Shown here: piece by piece, positions 16,095-50,352 of the stretch
Layout of the letters: each line of letters opens with the position of its first letter
Position numbering within the stretch: the first letter of the stretch is position 1
Notes under the pieces: model-generated
The model's input: the letters and a program-made list of their open reading frames with translations, nothing else
What the model was told of the DNA's origin: nothing
The model's database searches: none
Translations under genes and position numbers: made by a program
Assembly: GCA_005883765.1 (NCBI GenBank)
Contig: VBAQ01000065.1
Coordinates: 20,962-74,393 of the forward strand
DNA length: 53,432 nt
Direction of reading: 5' to 3'
DNA from: Bacteroidota bacterium
GTDB taxonomy: Bacteria; Bacteroidota; Bacteroidia; Chitinophagales; Chitinophagaceae

Positions 16095-18824
16095 ATGCAA
16101 CGACTTTTACTGAGAGCAACGATCTTTCTTGTCGCAACTTTTTTTTCCGTATTCACTTTGTATGCACAGCAAGATACTTCTAAACCAACATCTGTTGATC
16201 CTAACCTTCTTGCTCTTGAAAACGCCAAGGTCCCCAAAGAATATACTATTGCCGGCATTGCCCTCACAGGGGTTCATTATTTGGATACCAGCATTGTAAT
16301 GTCCATTGCCAACATACAGATTGGCGACAAGGTGTTGATTCCAGGCGGCGATCTTTTTTCCAAAGCGATCCAGAGCCTATGGCGGCAAAGACTTTTTGCG
16401 GATATACAGATCTACATCACCAAGGTGCAAGATGATAGGGTATGGGTAGAGATCGGGGTAACAGAACGGCCGCGTCTTGGCAATTTTAAGTTTGAAGGTG
16501 CACGCAAAAGTGAAATAGACGACCTGCAAGGAAAAGTTGGACTGGTAAAACAAACGATCATTACCGAAAACATGAAGCGGAGAGCCATAGAAGTTATCAC
16601 AAAATACTATGTTGATAAGGGGTATAAAAACCTCTCTGTAAATATTGTCACCCAAAAAGATCCTGCATTTGTAAATTCTGAGACGCTTACATTTCAAATT
16701 AGCAAAGGGGAAAAAGCGCACATTGATAATATTTTCTTCAACGGCAATGAAAATGTTTCGAGCATAAAATTGAAAAAGCAGATGAAGGGCACCAAAGAAA
16801 TGACCAAGATCAGTTTGTTCCCTGCCAAAGAAGTAAGCCCGTTTGGAACTGATTCCACTGAAAAGTTTGGTGAGTACATTAAAGATTGGGGATTTCTCAC
16901 TCCTTCAAAAACAAAGGCGCTCCTTGATCCATATTTTCGTTTCAAGCTATTTAGTTCTGCCAAATTAGATATGAAAAAGTTTGGCGAGGACATGGACAAA
17001 GTAGTCACTTATTACAATTCCCTGGGTTACCGCGACGCGCAGATTGTTGATACGGCTATTTATAGCTCAACCAACGGAAATATCAATGTTGCTTTAAAAG
17101 TGATCGAAGGCCACAAGTATTATTTCGGTAACATTAGTTGGAAAGGCAATGCTAAATATTCCGACTCGTTGCTTACAGTTCTTCTCGGTATTCATAAAGG
17201 TGACGTTTATAACATTGAAACACTCAATAAAAAACTTGGAAAAGAATTATCGCCCGAAGGAGGTGATATCAGTGCTCTCTACATGGATGATGGTTATTTG
17301 TTTTTTCATGTTGATCCTGTTGAAACCGCCGTGTATAATGATACGATAGATTACGAAATAAGAATCGTTGAGGGGCCGCAGGCAAGAATAAAAAATGTAA
17401 CAATCGCCGGAAATCAAAAAACCAAAGATTATGTTATCCGTCGCGAACTGAGAACCGTTCCGGGTGAACTATTCAATCGTTCTGATCTTATTCGTTCAGT
17501 TCGTGAATTATCGAATCTGCAGTATTTCAACCAGGAAAAAATTAATCCTGTGCCGGTGCCCAATGCTGAGGATGGAACAGTGGATATAAACTGGAACCTT
17601 GAAGAAAAGTCTTCCGATCAGTTAGAGCTTTCTGCCGGCTGGGGAGGGGGAATTGGATTAACAGGAACTCTCGGCGTTTCGTTCAATAATTTTTCCATAA
17701 GGAATATTTTCCATAAGGAAGCCTGGGACCCTTTGCCGCAAGGTGATGGACAAAAACTAAGCTTACGTTACCAATCGAATGGACGGGCCTTTAACTCTTA
17801 TAATGCATCTTTTACCGAGCCGTGGTTGGGAGGTAAAAAAAGAAATTCTCTTACTCTCGCGTTTTATCACAGCAAATTCTCGAATGCATTTGATCCCTTT
17901 ACTGGTTTGCCGGATAAACAAAGATCTGATACCAATTTCTTAAAGACCCTGGGGGTCTCTGTTTCCTTAGGCAAACAACTGAAATGGCCTGACGATTATT
18001 TCAGCCTGGTCTATTCAGTCAATTTTACTCAATACAAGCTGAGTCACTACCCAATCTTCCAGGGCTTAGATTCCGGCACATCAACCAACATCAGCTTCAA
18101 ACTTGCGTTGCAACGTTCATCGGTTTTTGATCCTACTTTTCCCCGGAGCGGTTCTAATTTCATAGCCAGTGTGCAGCTTACTCCGCCTTATTCCTTATTA
18201 AATCCCAATCTTGTTAATTCAAGCAATCCATATAAAACTCCGGAATATCACAAGTGGCGCTTCACGGCGGAATGGTATGTTCCTATAGGCAAGCCAATGG
18301 GAGAAGACAAGAACCGACAGTTTGTGTTAAAGATGGCCGCCAAATATGGATTTATGGGACGCTATAACCATAAACTCGACTTTTCGCCATTCGAAAGATT
18401 TCAACTGGGTGATGCGGGCCTAACCAATAATTATGGCTTGCTAGGCTATGACATCATTGCGCAACGTGGATATCCCGTGTATGAAAATTCAGACCCGTCG
18501 ATAAACCCTGATCAAAGCAGCGCTTCAAGATTCTTTACCATCTTCAATAAGTATCAATTGGAGTTGCGATATCCGCTGGTAACAAATCCGAGCAGCACCA
18601 TTTATGGTCTTGTTTTCTTCGAAGCAGCTAATGGGTGGTATAATTTCAAAGATTACAACCCATTCCGGCTGCGCCGAAGCACTGGTGTCGGCATGCGTTT
18701 CTTCCTGCCCATGTTCGGTTTGCTGGGATTTGATTATGGAGTGGGCATTGATCGCCTTGGGCCAAACACCAAGCTAAAAGATGCGTCACGCTTTACCTTT
18801 ATGCTTGGCTACGAACCCGAATAA
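16095..18824 (+). CDS. bamA: Outer membrane protein assembly factor BamA
   Basis: The 909-residue core subunit of the BAM complex folds beta barrels into the outer membrane. A signal peptide (residues 1-24, ending FTLYAQ) is followed by five POTRA domains to about residue 500 (for example RRAIEVITKYYVDKGYKNLS, GKELSPEGGDISALYMDDGY, TIAGNQKTKDYVIRRELRTV). The Omp85 barrel begins with SAGWGGGIGLTGTLGVSFNN near 515 and ends in FMLGYEPE. Length is typical for Bacteroidetes, which have an extended segment between POTRA2 and POTRA3. Two OmpH/Skp chaperone genes follow. Confidence 0.95.
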   Translation: MQRLLLRATIFLVATFFSVFTLYAQQDTSKPTSVDPNLLALENAKVPKEYTIAGIALTGVHYLDTSIVMSIANIQIGDKVLIPGGDLFSKAIQSLWRQRLFADIQIYITKVQDDRVWVEIGVTERPRLGNFKFEGARKSEIDDLQGKVGLVKQTIITENMKRRAIEVITKYYVDKGYKNLSVNIVTQKDPAFVNSETLTFQISKGEKAHIDNIFFNGNENVSSIKLKKQMKGTKEMTKISLFPAKEVSPFGTDSTEKFGEYIKDWGFLTPSKTKALLDPYFRFKLFSSAKLDMKKFGEDMDKVVTYYNSLGYRDAQIVDTAIYSSTNGNINVALKVIEGHKYYFGNISWKGNAKYSDSLLTVLLGIHKGDVYNIETLNKKLGKELSPEGGDISALYMDDGYLFFHVDPVETAVYNDTIDYEIRIVEGPQARIKNVTIAGNQKTKDYVIRRELRTVPGELFNRSDLIRSVRELSNLQYFNQEKINPVPVPNAEDGTVDINWNLEEKSSDQLELSAGWGGGIGLTGTLGVSFNNFSIRNIFHKEAWDPLPQGDGQKLSLRYQSNGRAFNSYNASFTEPWLGGKKRNSLTLAFYHSKFSNAFDPFTGLPDKQRSDTNFLKTLGVSVSLGKQLKWPDDYFSLVYSVNFTQYKLSHYPIFQGLDSGTSTNISFKLALQRSSVFDPTFPRSGSNFIASVQLTPPYSLLNPNLVNSSNPYKTPEYHKWRFTAEWYVPIGKPMGEDKNRQFVLKMAAKYGFMGRYNHKLDFSPFERFQLGDAGLTNNYGLLGYDIIAQRGYPVYENSDPSINPDQSSASRFFTIFNKYQLELRYPLVTNPSSTIYGLVFFEAANGWYNFKDYNPFRLRRSTGVGMRFFLPMFGLLGFDYGVGIDRLGPNTKLKDASRFTFMLGYEPE

Positions 18825-22215: not shown

Positions 22216-22361
22216 GAACAAGGAATGGCGAATTTTGAAGTCCACAGATCTACATGCTACGGTTCAATGTTCCTTGTTCGATATTCAATGTGGAATGCGA
22301 ATTTTGAAGTCAACAGATCTACCTTCTGCGGTTCAATGTTCCTTGTTCGATATTCAATGTG
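22216..22361. repeat. Two copies of a ~65-bp palindromic repeat, period 69
   Basis: Two near-identical units begin GCGAATTTTGAAGT at 22228 and 22297, share CAGATCTAC, and end TTCCTTGTTCGATATTCAAT then GTG. The pattern also contains the inverted arms GAACAAGGAA (22216-22225) and TTCCTTGTTC (22270-22279 and 22339-22348), so each unit can fold. It fills the spacer between typA and the acyltransferase and resembles intergenic repeats scattered in Chitinophagaceae genomes. Confidence 0.75.
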
Positions 22362-40159: not shown

Positions 40160-41617
40160 ATGAATTCCAGTTTATATGATTTTGGCATGATCGGCCTGGG
40201 CACCATGGGCTGCAATCTTCTGTTGAATATGGCCGACAATCACTTCGCCGTTATTGGTTTTGACATCAATCGTTCAAAGGCCGAAGAGTTTGAAGCATCA
40301 GCAAACCCTGATACAGTTGTAAAAGGAGTTTTTGAATTATCGTCGATGGTACAACAATTAAAAAAACCAAGGAAGATGATGATGCTCGTGCCGGCGGGTA
40401 AGCCTGTTGATGACGTGATCAACAACTTGCTTCCTCTTCTGGAAAAGGATGATATAGTTATCGATGGCGGCAACTCTCATTTTACTGATACCCTGAAAAG
40501 GATCCAATTCCTCCAGGAAAAAGGGATTCACTTCATGGGAATTGGAATTTCAGGGGGTGAGATGGGAGCCAGGATAGGTCCCAGCATTATGCCCGGGGGA
40601 GATCAGCCAGGATGGAACCAGGTAAAACCCATTTTGGAAGCAGTATCCGCAAAAGTAAATGGCGAGCCGTGTGTTGCTTATATGGGTAAGTGGGCCGCGG
40701 GGCATTATGTAAAAATGGTGCACAATGGAATTGAATATGGGATTATGCAACTGATCAGCGAAGTATATGATATTTTAAAACGAGGTGTTGGATTAACGAA
40801 CGAAGAATTGCACGACACTTTTAAAAACTGGAACGAAGGGGATATGCAATCTTTTTTGTTGGAGATCACCGCTGACATTTTCACACACAAAGACGCAGAG
40901 ACGGGAAAGGGAATGGTTGATATCATTCTGGATAAGGCTGGTTCAAAGGGCACTGGCAAATGGACCTCGCAAAATGCCATGGACCTTGCCACGCCTATTC
41001 CGACAATCGATATGGCAGTTGCCATGAGGGACATCTCGGTTTATAAGGATGAGCGAATGACCGCGGCGGAGTTGTACGGCAGGAACTCATCGCAAATGAT
41101 CAGGGACAAAGAAAAATTCGTCTCTCAATTACACGATGCCCTCTACTTTGCTACGATCATCTGTTATGCGCAAGGGTTCGCATTATTGCACAAGGGATCC
41201 GGGGACCTGGACATGAACATTCCTTTGCCTGATGTTGTGAGGATCTGGAGAGGGGGCTGCATCATCCGTTCCGCGTTGCTGGATAATTTTTATTCTGTGT
41301 ATAAGAAAGACCCGGAGCTTTCAAATATGCTTTTGAATAAAAAGATTGCAAGACTATTGAAGAGCAAGGAGAAAAAACTAAGAATGGTTATAAAACAGGC
41401 AACCGCACTTAGAATTCCCATGGCCGGGTTCACTTCTGCATTGGCTTATTTCGATGCTTACTGCAGTAAACAATTGCCCACTAACCTGATCCAGGCCCAG
41501 CGTGATTTTTTTGGTGCGCATATGTATCAGCGTATTGATAAAGAAGGAATGTTTCATAACGAATGGCAGCCTTTGCCCGAGCATGCAAACGAAGAAGAAC
41601 CCGAGCAAAAACCCTAG
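40160..41617 (+). CDS. gnd: 6-phosphogluconate dehydrogenase, decarboxylating
   Basis: It converts 6-phosphogluconate to ribulose 5-phosphate with NADPH and CO2. The 485-residue protein has the NADP-binding motif IGLGTMG at 11-17 followed by FDINRSKAEEF, then VIDGGNSHFTDTLKRI, GIGISGGEMGARIGPSIMPG and the substrate site AAGHYVKMVHNGIEYGIMQL. The C-terminal helical domain contains KGTGKWTSQNAMDLATPIPT and SALAYFDAYC. Length is standard for the E. coli-type enzyme. It opens the oxidative pentose phosphate operon with zwf and pgl. Confidence 0.96.
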   Translation: MNSSLYDFGMIGLGTMGCNLLLNMADNHFAVIGFDINRSKAEEFEASANPDTVVKGVFELSSMVQQLKKPRKMMMLVPAGKPVDDVINNLLPLLEKDDIVIDGGNSHFTDTLKRIQFLQEKGIHFMGIGISGGEMGARIGPSIMPGGDQPGWNQVKPILEAVSAKVNGEPCVAYMGKWAAGHYVKMVHNGIEYGIMQLISEVYDILKRGVGLTNEELHDTFKNWNEGDMQSFLLEITADIFTHKDAETGKGMVDIILDKAGSKGTGKWTSQNAMDLATPIPTIDMAVAMRDISVYKDERMTAAELYGRNSSQMIRDKEKFVSQLHDALYFATIICYAQGFALLHKGSGDLDMNIPLPDVVRIWRGGCIIRSALLDNFYSVYKKDPELSNMLLNKKIARLLKSKEKKLRMVIKQATALRIPMAGFTSALAYFDAYCSKQLPTNLIQAQRDFFGAHMYQRIDKEGMFHNEWQPLPEHANEEEPEQKP

Positions 41618-41840: not shown

Positions 41841-43352
41841 ATGAAAGCTCAAAAGAAACTTCCTCCTGTGATCATGATCATTTTCGGCGGGAGCGGTGAT
41901 CTCGCCAGCCGCAAGCTGATGCCAGCGTTATTTAATCTTTTCATTGATGATTACTTACCCGATGATTTTGCAGTAGCAGGCATCGGGCGCACAGATTATG
42001 GCGGTGAGGAAAAGTACCGGGAGCATTTATTGGAAGGTGTCAAACAATTTTCACGACGCAAAGATCATGATGAAGAATGGAAAAAATTTTCTGAAAAGAT
42101 ATGTTACGTGGCAGTGGATATAAAAGATGATGCTGCCTTCCAGGAAATTGGAAAATGGATTGAAGAAAAGAGCAAAGGGTGGAAGGAGCATCCAATTATA
42201 ATTTATTACATGGCCGTGGCGCCTCAACTGGCGCCGGATATAGCCAAAAAATTATACGATCAAAAACTTTGCGCCGATCCGAAATGCACAAGAATGGTAT
42301 TTGAAAAACCATTTGGTCATGATTTGGAAAGCGCGCAGGAGCTGAATCAATTGTTGGGCAGTATGTTTGACGAAGACCAGATCTATCGTATCGATCATTA
42401 CCTGGGTAAAGAAACAGTGCAGAATATTTTAGCATTACGCTTCGCCAATGCTTTGTTTGAACCGATTTGGAACAGCAATTATATTGATCATGCCCAGATC
42501 ACAGCAGCGGAAACAGTTGGCGTGGAGGATCGTGGCGGGTACTATGAACAGGCAGGCGCATTGAGAGACATGGTGCAGAATCACATTCTGCAATTGTTGT
42601 GTATGATTGCCATGGAAGCTCCTGTTTCTTTTGATGCGAATGAAATAAGAAATAAAAAAGTGGATGTGCTGAATGCGATCCGGAAATTTAATCCCGAAGA
42701 TGTGCATTCGCACGCCGTACGTGGCCAATACGCTGGGGGTTGGATGAAGGGAGAAAAAGTACAAGGCTATCGCCAGGAAAAAAATGTAGATAAAAATTCG
42801 CCTGCAGAAACTTTCGCTGCAGTGAAGTTCTTTATTGACAACTGGCGCTGGCAAAATGTACCCTTTTATATTCGCACAGGAAAATACCTGCACGAAAAAA
42901 CAACACTCATCACTATTCAATTCAAACCTGCACCCGATTATGCATTTCCTGAAGAGGCATCTGACACCTGGCGTGCAAACCGGCTTACCATCAGCATTCA
43001 GCCCGATATGGATATTCGTATTCGCTTCCAGTCAAAACGACCGGGACCAAGCATGATCCTGAGTCCGGTAGACATGATATTCAGCTATGCCGAAGCATAT
43101 CATGAGGATGAACCAGAGGCCTATGAAACTCTGCTGGAAGATGTGATGGAAGGCAATCCCACATTGTTCATGCGCGCCGACCAGGTCGAGTCCGCGTGGC
43201 GGGTGATTACACCGATCATGGATGCGTGGGGACATCGCAAGCCCGTTGATTTTCCAAACTATGCTCCCGGTAGCTGGGGACCTGAAGATGCCGAAGCGCT
43301 CGTGGCAAGAGACGGACATCATTGGGTAACGTTGCCAACTAAAAATGGGTAA
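41841..43352 (+). CDS. zwf: Glucose-6-phosphate 1-dehydrogenase
   Basis: It oxidises glucose 6-phosphate to 6-phosphoglucono-lactone with NADP, the entry step of the oxidative pentose phosphate pathway. The 503-residue protein has the dinucleotide motif IIFGGSGDLASRKLMPALFN near 13-32, RMVFEKPFGHDLESAQELNQ, the active-site signature RIDHYLGKETVQNILALRFA and EDRGGYYEQAGALRDMVQNH. The C-terminal beta domain has FYIRTGKYL. An AAGG element lies just before the ATG. Substrate and product enzymes gnd and pgl flank it. Confidence 0.96.
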   Translation: MKAQKKLPPVIMIIFGGSGDLASRKLMPALFNLFIDDYLPDDFAVAGIGRTDYGGEEKYREHLLEGVKQFSRRKDHDEEWKKFSEKICYVAVDIKDDAAFQEIGKWIEEKSKGWKEHPIIIYYMAVAPQLAPDIAKKLYDQKLCADPKCTRMVFEKPFGHDLESAQELNQLLGSMFDEDQIYRIDHYLGKETVQNILALRFANALFEPIWNSNYIDHAQITAAETVGVEDRGGYYEQAGALRDMVQNHILQLLCMIAMEAPVSFDANEIRNKKVDVLNAIRKFNPEDVHSHAVRGQYAGGWMKGEKVQGYRQEKNVDKNSPAETFAAVKFFIDNWRWQNVPFYIRTGKYLHEKTTLITIQFKPAPDYAFPEEASDTWRANRLTISIQPDMDIRIRFQSKRPGPSMILSPVDMIFSYAEAYHEDEPEAYETLLEDVMEGNPTLFMRADQVESAWRVITPIMDAWGHRKPVDFPNYAPGSWGPEDAEALVARDGHHWVTLPTKNG

Positions 43353-43400: not shown

Positions 43401-43429
43401 GCCTTGCTTCGCCGAAGCTTCGCGAAGGC
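43401..43429. repeat. Nested GCTTCGCGAAGC-type palindromes before pgl
   Basis: CTTCGCCGAAG (43407-43417) and the perfect palindrome CTTCGCGAAG (43418-43427) lie side by side within outer GCCTT/AAGGC arms in the short spacer before the chosen pgl start. The structure resembles small dispersed palindromic elements. Confidence 0.5.
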
Positions 43430-43469: not shown

Positions 43470-44297
43470 ATGCAATTGAGTATTTCAAAAAATATCGAGG
43501 AATTGAATTGGCGAGTCGCTGAATGGATAATTGAAAGCATGCGTGAAGTATTGCAAACCCAAGAGCGGTTCACGATTGTCTTATCTGGTGGCAACACTCC
43601 AAAAAAACTTTACCAACTACTTGCATCAGATGAATTCAAAAACAAAATTGACTGGCAAAAGCTTCATGTATTCTGGGGCGACGAGCGTTATGTTCCTTTT
43701 TCAGATGATCGCAACAATGCAAAAATGGCTTTTGATACATTGCTTGATCACGTGCCCGTTCCCAGGTCACAAATTCATACCATGCGCACGGACATCGATC
43801 CGGAAGCTTCGGCAAATGAATATGAAAAGATTTTGATGACGTACTTCCCGGGAGCTACAAGCAAAGAAACGACTCCTGGCTCCCGACTCCTGACTCCCGA
43901 CTCTCTCCACTCTCCAAAGGAGTCCTTACAGACACCACTCTCCGAAGGAGTCCTTTCGGAAACGACTTTCGGTCTCGTCCTCCTCGGCCTTGGCGACAAT
44001 GCCCACACTCTTTCGCTATTTCCGGGTGAAGAAGTTGTTCATGAAAAAAACAGATGGGTGAAAGCAGTTTTTGTAAAAGAAGTAAACATGCGGCGCATAA
44101 CCTTAACGGCCCCTGTCGTAAATCTTTCAAGACACATCGCATTTTTAGTTAGCGGACAAGACAAGGCTGATGCCGTGTCGCATATTCTTTTGAACGATTA
44201 CACGCCTGATCTGTATCCTGCACAAGTTATAAAGCCTGTGAACGGAGAATTATTATGGTTTTTAGATGAGGCGGCGGCCGAAAGAGTAAAAAGATAA
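43470..44297 (+). CDS. pgl: 6-phosphogluconolactonase with repeat-derived insertion
   Basis: It hydrolyses 6-phosphogluconolactone between the zwf and gnd steps. ATG 43470 (275 residues) is chosen because the longer frame reads through palindromic repeat DNA. Family signatures are FTIVLSGGNTPKKLYQLLAS at 34-53, KLHVFWGDERYVPFSDDRNN and VLLGLGDNAHTLSLFPGE near 170-187. Normal enzymes of this type have about 240 residues; the excess is residues 134-165 (TTPGSRLLTPDSL then LQTPLSEGVLS), encoded by tandem repeats, in a loop before the strand FGLVLLGLG. Its stop touches the stop of the convergent amidase gene. Confidence 0.92.
   Translation: MQLSISKNIEELNWRVAEWIIESMREVLQTQERFTIVLSGGNTPKKLYQLLASDEFKNKIDWQKLHVFWGDERYVPFSDDRNNAKMAFDTLLDHVPVPRSQIHTMRTDIDPEASANEYEKILMTYFPGATSKETTPGSRLLTPDSLHSPKESLQTPLSEGVLSETTFGLVLLGLGDNAHTLSLFPGEEVVHEKNRWVKAVFVKEVNMRRITLTAPVVNLSRHIAFLVSGQDKADAVSHILLNDYTPDLYPAQVIKPVNGELLWFLDEAAAERVKR
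43871..43960. repeat. Tandem repeats inside pgl
   Basis: A 14-bp unit, GACTCCTGGCTCCC, GACTCCTGACTCCC, then a partial GACTC, is followed by two copies of CACTCTCCAAAGGAGTCCTT (43908-43927, and 43936-43955 with one mismatch, period 28). Each of these contains the inverted CTCC-AAA-GGAG. The whole block is in frame in pgl. Confidence 0.8.
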
Positions 44298-50151: not shown

Positions 50152-50352
50152 AAGGGCAACAGGCAATTGGCAACAGGCAATTATTTTTATCGTCGATTGC
50201 CCTTCGCCTTTCGCCCTGTGGCTTTTTCTTATTGCCCATTACTTATTGCCATTGCTCATTGCCCATTGCCCGTTGCTTATTGCCCATTGCCTATTGCCCT
50301 TTGCTTATTGCCCATTGCCCATTGCCCATTGCTTATTGCTCATTGCCCATTG
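50152..50352. repeat. Imperfect heptanucleotide array (ATTGCCC)
   Basis: From about 50229 the sequence is built almost wholly of ATTGCCC units and one-base variants (ATTGCTC, ATTGCCT, TTGCTT). A preceding stretch near 50154-50182 (GGGCAACAGGCAATTGGCAA and on) is its reverse complement, so the block can fold back on itself. It fills the 220-bp spacer between the glycosyltransferase and the ABC permease. Open frames through it are by-products. Confidence 0.9.

Follow-up and report, generated by a model that had tools for sequence, protein, structure and literature searches.

The 6-phosphogluconolactonase gene (pgl) of a 4.7-Mb Chitinophagaceae genome carries, within its reading frame, a heptamer array and two short palindromes that are very probably a piece of the dispersed non-coding repeats of this lineage, and one case of a genome-wide invasion of genes. 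The gene lies in the window analysed here, a stretch of 53,432 nucleotides from contig VBAQ01000065.1 of assembly GCA_005883765.1. A first-pass annotation had singled out the pgl segment as an insertion built of repeats; the insertion is real, but it is not a single oddity, given the repeat-bearing loop of a congener and the many in-gene copies described below.

Identity and repeat content of pgl

The gene begins at an ATG (the listed open reading frame starts upstream, at TTG 43386) and closes the run gnd (40160-41617), zwf (41841-43352), pgl. A GCTTCGCCGAA repeat and a palindrome occur at window positions 43406-43427, between zwf and the pgl ATG. The product scores 189.7 bits against the TIGR01198 profile (curated cut-off 124.45) and 217 bits against PF01182 (cut-off 27), and the top Foldseek matches of its AlphaFold2 model are PGL structures (E 2.5e-23), in keeping with the PGL/NagB fold. 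The GLGDNAHT..SLFP motif is invariant across 35 aligned homologues.

Table 1. Features of pgl and of its repeat-bearing segment, in window coordinates
Feature	Position	Strand	Basis
pgl, 6-phosphogluconolactonase, 275 aa	43470..44297	+	TIGR01198, PF01182, PGL fold
Segment that was probably inserted, 31 codons in 93 bp (ETTPGSRLLTPDSLHSPKESLQTPLSEGVLS)	43866..43958	+	Homologue loop lengths, composition, frame, AF2 pLDDT
9-bp direct repeat GAAACGACT, left copy bounding the segment	43866..43874	+	
Array of 4.9 heptamers, CGACTCC/T (2.4 copies of a 14-bp super-unit)	43870..43903	+	TRF score 61
Imperfect palindrome ACTCTCCRAAGGAGTCCTNNCGGACA, copy 1, 1 mismatch	43909..43934	+	Genome-wide motif search
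Imperfect palindrome ACTCTCCRAAGGAGTCCTNNCGGACA, copy 2, 1 mismatch, 28 bp (4 x 7) downstream of copy 1	43937..43962	+	
9-bp direct repeat GAAACGACT, right copy, 93 bp past the left copy	43959..43967	+	

The direct repeats reported by the first-pass annotation were recovered with slightly different spans. Its 14-bp repeat corresponds to copies at 43870-43883 and 43884-43897 (93% identity) in an array that runs on to 43903, and its 20-bp repeat to a 28-nt pair at 43892-43919 and 43920-43947 (71%), which includes CTCTCCAAAGGAGTCC and CTCTCCGAAGGAGTCC; the two CTCTCC(A/G)AAGGAGTCC repeats agree with its description. As that annotation had held, the whole stretch of array and palindromes is translated in frame within the 275-residue product; the two copies of ACTCTCCRAAGGAGTCCTNNCGGACA are read in different frames (HSPKESLQT vs LSEGVLSET). 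The G+C content of the insert is 57%, against 43% in the remainder of pgl.

Two structural readings of the segment fared less well. The GAAACGACT pair might represent a target duplication or recombination homology, a weak possibility since 9-mer pairs spaced 60-150 bp apart are common in the window (2.3 per kb) and the pair overlaps the repeat unit; chance could account for it, and target duplication is retained as a weak candidate. The palindromic part of the insert folds somewhat better than shuffled sequences (z -2.2); a DNA hairpin of the whole 93-bp insert was dropped, as it folds no better than shuffles (z -0.29).

A long, probably disordered loop

Between the NEYEKIL and LVLLG motifs lie 53 residues, where nearly all other homologues measured have 18-23, the exceptions being L051 (33 residues) and the congener (54 residues). 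PGL family members that were read separately show at most a mild expansion of the same loop (L049, L051, L056 and L057 being mildly variable), and solved mycobacterial PGLs align on either side of the segment and skip the segment itself. These comparisons bear out the proposed lengthening from about 240 to 275 residues. In the alignment with homologues that the first-pass annotation had called for, the segment as such is absent from distant orthologues; its conservation in distant genera, which that annotation had named as counter-evidence, did not turn up. The insertion, read from loop length relative to homologues, would amount to some 31-34 extra codons with approximate edges.

AlphaFold2, run with 35 homologues, returned a confident PGL core (mean pLDDT 86.8, pTM 0.83) in which residues 134-162 fall below a pLDDT of 50, between a helix at 111-125 and a strand at 169-173. 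This is the strand that leads to GLGDNAHT, just before which the insertion had been placed. The repeat-derived segment is thus probably a floppy or disordered surface loop, and the repeats within many other core enzymes of this genome probably take the same form.

Dispersal through genes and between them

The repeats exceed chance: a search of its own genome matched the heptamer motif 52 times, overlaps included, and the 26-bp palindrome ACTCTCCRAAGGAGTCCTNNCGGACA has 18 copies there, with none for the reversed control of either. Twelve of the 18 palindromes overlap called or long open reading frames, in several frames; the copies lie in pgl, murB, rnpA, purN, xdhA and other genes (named by eye except where family-scanned), and six are intergenic. 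We also sampled 636 kb of the genome, in which crude gene calls put the coding share at 85%. Heptamer arrays predominate among its repeats; 8 of 26 heptamer-type arrays lie at least 10 codons inside genes and 18 do not. The contention that such DNA normally sits between genes thus holds for most of the arrays and fails for most copies of the palindrome. If the sample is typical, extrapolation would give about 60 in-gene arrays genome-wide; at least one of the eight in the sample (in aroA, below) is not a net insertion. In-gene arrays of the sample with a period not divisible by three are almost exclusively of 7 or 14 bp. The units CTCACCA and ATTCACC carry stops on one strand; each of the six examples seen inside genes has the orientation that can be read through, as would be expected if copies arrived at random and were then sorted by selection.

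In-gene repeats also occur in valS, uvrA, rsmG, an ABC-F gene, lpxB, paaC, a GH2 gene, an allantoinase-like gene, fmt, tilS and others, in addition to the hosts of the palindrome, and most repeat-bearing genes were confirmed by family membership. Comparison with orthologues shows a net insertion in valS (two sites), uvrA, murB, fmt, tilS and lpxB, the remaining genes being less firm; the valS insert is also evident against the solved ValS 1gax, and those of murB and uvrA against solved homologues. An aroA heptamer array (VIINNERLIINNN) that was initially taken as an insert is excluded from this count because alignment of orthologues revealed zero net length change; aroA does have a small insert elsewhere, formed by a palindrome.

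Other repeats were encountered in passing. At L196:18863-19999 and L308:1405-2547, repeats contribute to the signal-peptide-like N-terminal region of a peptidase-like and a WD40-like (PD40) protein. The window itself holds a long intergenic ATTGCCC-type heptamer array with a 28-bp super-period (50155-50352, TRF score 174), nearly two copies of a 16-bp direct repeat, TTTTCCATAAGGAATA (17691-17720, within a 909-residue open reading frame at 16095-18821), and a 69-bp tandem repeat in two copies at 92% (22222-22361).

Turnover among relatives

G001, the one congener sampled, encodes a PGL of 72% identity (on the contig of L073) with its long loop at the matching place, and this loop is built from different repeats: GAGCTTC units, TCACGACTCACGTCCCGATAGCCATCGGGACACGACTCACGA and GCTCGCA units. 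It includes a palindrome, TCACGACTCACGTCCCGATAGCYATCGGGACACGACTCACGA, that is found in three places of the congener genome. Each copy follows the reading frame of a conserved gene: besides pgl, these are aroA and guaA (the latter named by eye via its GLQFHPEVYH region), whose copies match that of pgl at ~98%. The encoded peptide is nearly the same in the three proteins (HDSRPDSYRDTTH, with HDSRPDSYRDTTHD/E in aroA and guaA), and HDSRPDS[HY]RDTTH is present in each. A more diverged copy occupies murB in another frame, and tilS of G059 holds a similar palindrome.

The pgl, aroA, murB and valS sites carry repeats in both genus members, with differing sequences, and the uvrA insert is present in one of them only; the repeats thus turn over in a lineage-specific manner. 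ACTCTCCRAAGGAGTCCTNNCGGACA is absent from the five relatives searched (G001, G059, G048, G055 and G060). No heptamer arrays were found in samples of G060 (400 kb) or G059 (295 kb). In G055, of a related genus, one of 48 arrays in 400 kb lies inside a gene, compared with 8 of 26 here (Fisher p 0.0007 by counts). The G055 sample (L268-L287) has heptamer-type arrays at a density of ~120 per Mb, very few of which fall inside genes, together with 8/16-bp arrays.

Origin and fate of the insertions

We propose that heptamer satellite arrays and short palindromes entered pgl in its reading frame, and that translation of the insert would give an unstructured loop on the protein surface, flanked by the helix at 111-125 and the GLGDNAHT strand. 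Copy number points to a mobile repeat spread by copying, for which replication slippage, template switching and gene conversion between repeats are plausible routes. Copies that happened to be in frame, free of stops and sited where the protein tolerates them (a loop, a linker or a terminus) would survive, and most other in-gene copies would be purged by selection. That hosts such as valS and murB are essential suggests that the enzymes still work, and the in-gene repeats may well be neutral.

It is unlikely that the pgl loop is instead a variable low-complexity stretch expanded in place by heptamer slippage, with nothing copied in. The mild variability of this loop in four family members, and a tandem structure typical of slippage in a genome where heptamer arrays predominate, would both suit such an origin, but the pgl segment has two copies of a palindrome common to 16 other places in the genome, and the loop of the congener shares its own palindrome with aroA and guaA. 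Near-identical sequences in unrelated genes cannot arise by local expansion, so the copies must have spread; single 7-bp steps would moreover break the frame. The shared palindromes largely refute slippage as the origin of the insert, although length changes after arrival may still be due to it. The draft state of both genomes (403 and ~600 contigs), in which repeats near the limits of assembly can provoke misassembly, raises the prospect that repeat reads were misjoined into genes during assembly or binning. We consider this very improbable, as the inserts are many, independent and all in frame, and occur at shared sites in two separate assemblies while differing between them.

The recurrence of repeats at the pgl, murB, valS and aroA sites in both congeners, despite different sequences, might also indicate that they are retained for a useful function, be it interaction, regulation or a contingency switch of length. 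We regard this as rather improbable: the congener loops are unrelated in sequence and read in different frames, the uvrA insert is confined to one congener, and the unrelated host enzymes have only the repeats in common. Predicted disorder and position in loops suit tolerance equally. Invasion by dispersed repeats remains our preferred reading, and a bolder version of it may be entertained tentatively, in which heptamer-palindrome cassettes reach genes by active copying, through a system peculiar to this lineage. A sizeable share of the core proteome might then bear disordered loops that change quickly and sit at the same permissive sites again and again. The repeats would be a genomic parasite of proteins, tolerated in a lineage other than the Rickettsiales, or would keep supplying variation in proteins.

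A Bacteroidota genus with repeats in tRNA synthetase, cell-wall and DNA-repair enzymes would offer a test-bed for the passage of non-coding repeat into protein, and allow direct tests of loop tolerance and repeat movement. Such inserts can also distort gene length and alignment-based annotation.

Comparison with known repeat systems

Palindromes that code for protein have been regarded chiefly as a peculiarity of Rickettsia and Wolbachia, apart from isolated examples in other organisms. Our search of the Bacteroidota/Bacteroidetes literature, whose coverage left out most subscription journals, found no report of the same phenomenon. The Rickettsia palindromic elements (RPE) and those of Wolbachia are dispersed repeats that occupy intergenic DNA and also, read in frame, conserved genes that are otherwise unrelated, where they are tolerated (PMC2229807, PMC10969869), and the 26-mer and the congener palindrome behave likewise, each repeat occurring in frame in unrelated conserved genes. 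RPE are, however, ~105-150 bp long with terminal inverted repeats, whereas the core here is 26-43 bp; given this departure in size and structure, we claim similar behaviour and not membership. Their hosts are obligate intracellular Alphaproteobacteria, whereas ours belongs to the Bacteroidota and has a 4.7-Mb genome, in which the palindromes are joined to 7-bp arrays.

Among short tandem repeats, the cyanobacterial STRR heptamers consist of tandem 7-bp units that are scattered and mostly intergenic. The present arrays resemble heptamer satellites of the STRR and TAACTGA type in having tandem 7-bp units at many places. TAACTGA repeats, likewise tandem, scattered and mostly intergenic, are known from Beggiatoaceae, cyanobacteria and some Bacteroidetes, and those reported in genes mostly affect the ends of proteins; their forward strand has stops in all frames (PMC4679880). 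REP and similar extragenic palindromes (PMC3733652) are 20-40-bp sequences in many copies, extragenic by name, whereas two-thirds of the copies of our 26-mer overlap called genes. The heptamer arrays differ from the TAACTGA type in lying inside the conserved domains of core enzymes, and in comprising several unit families.
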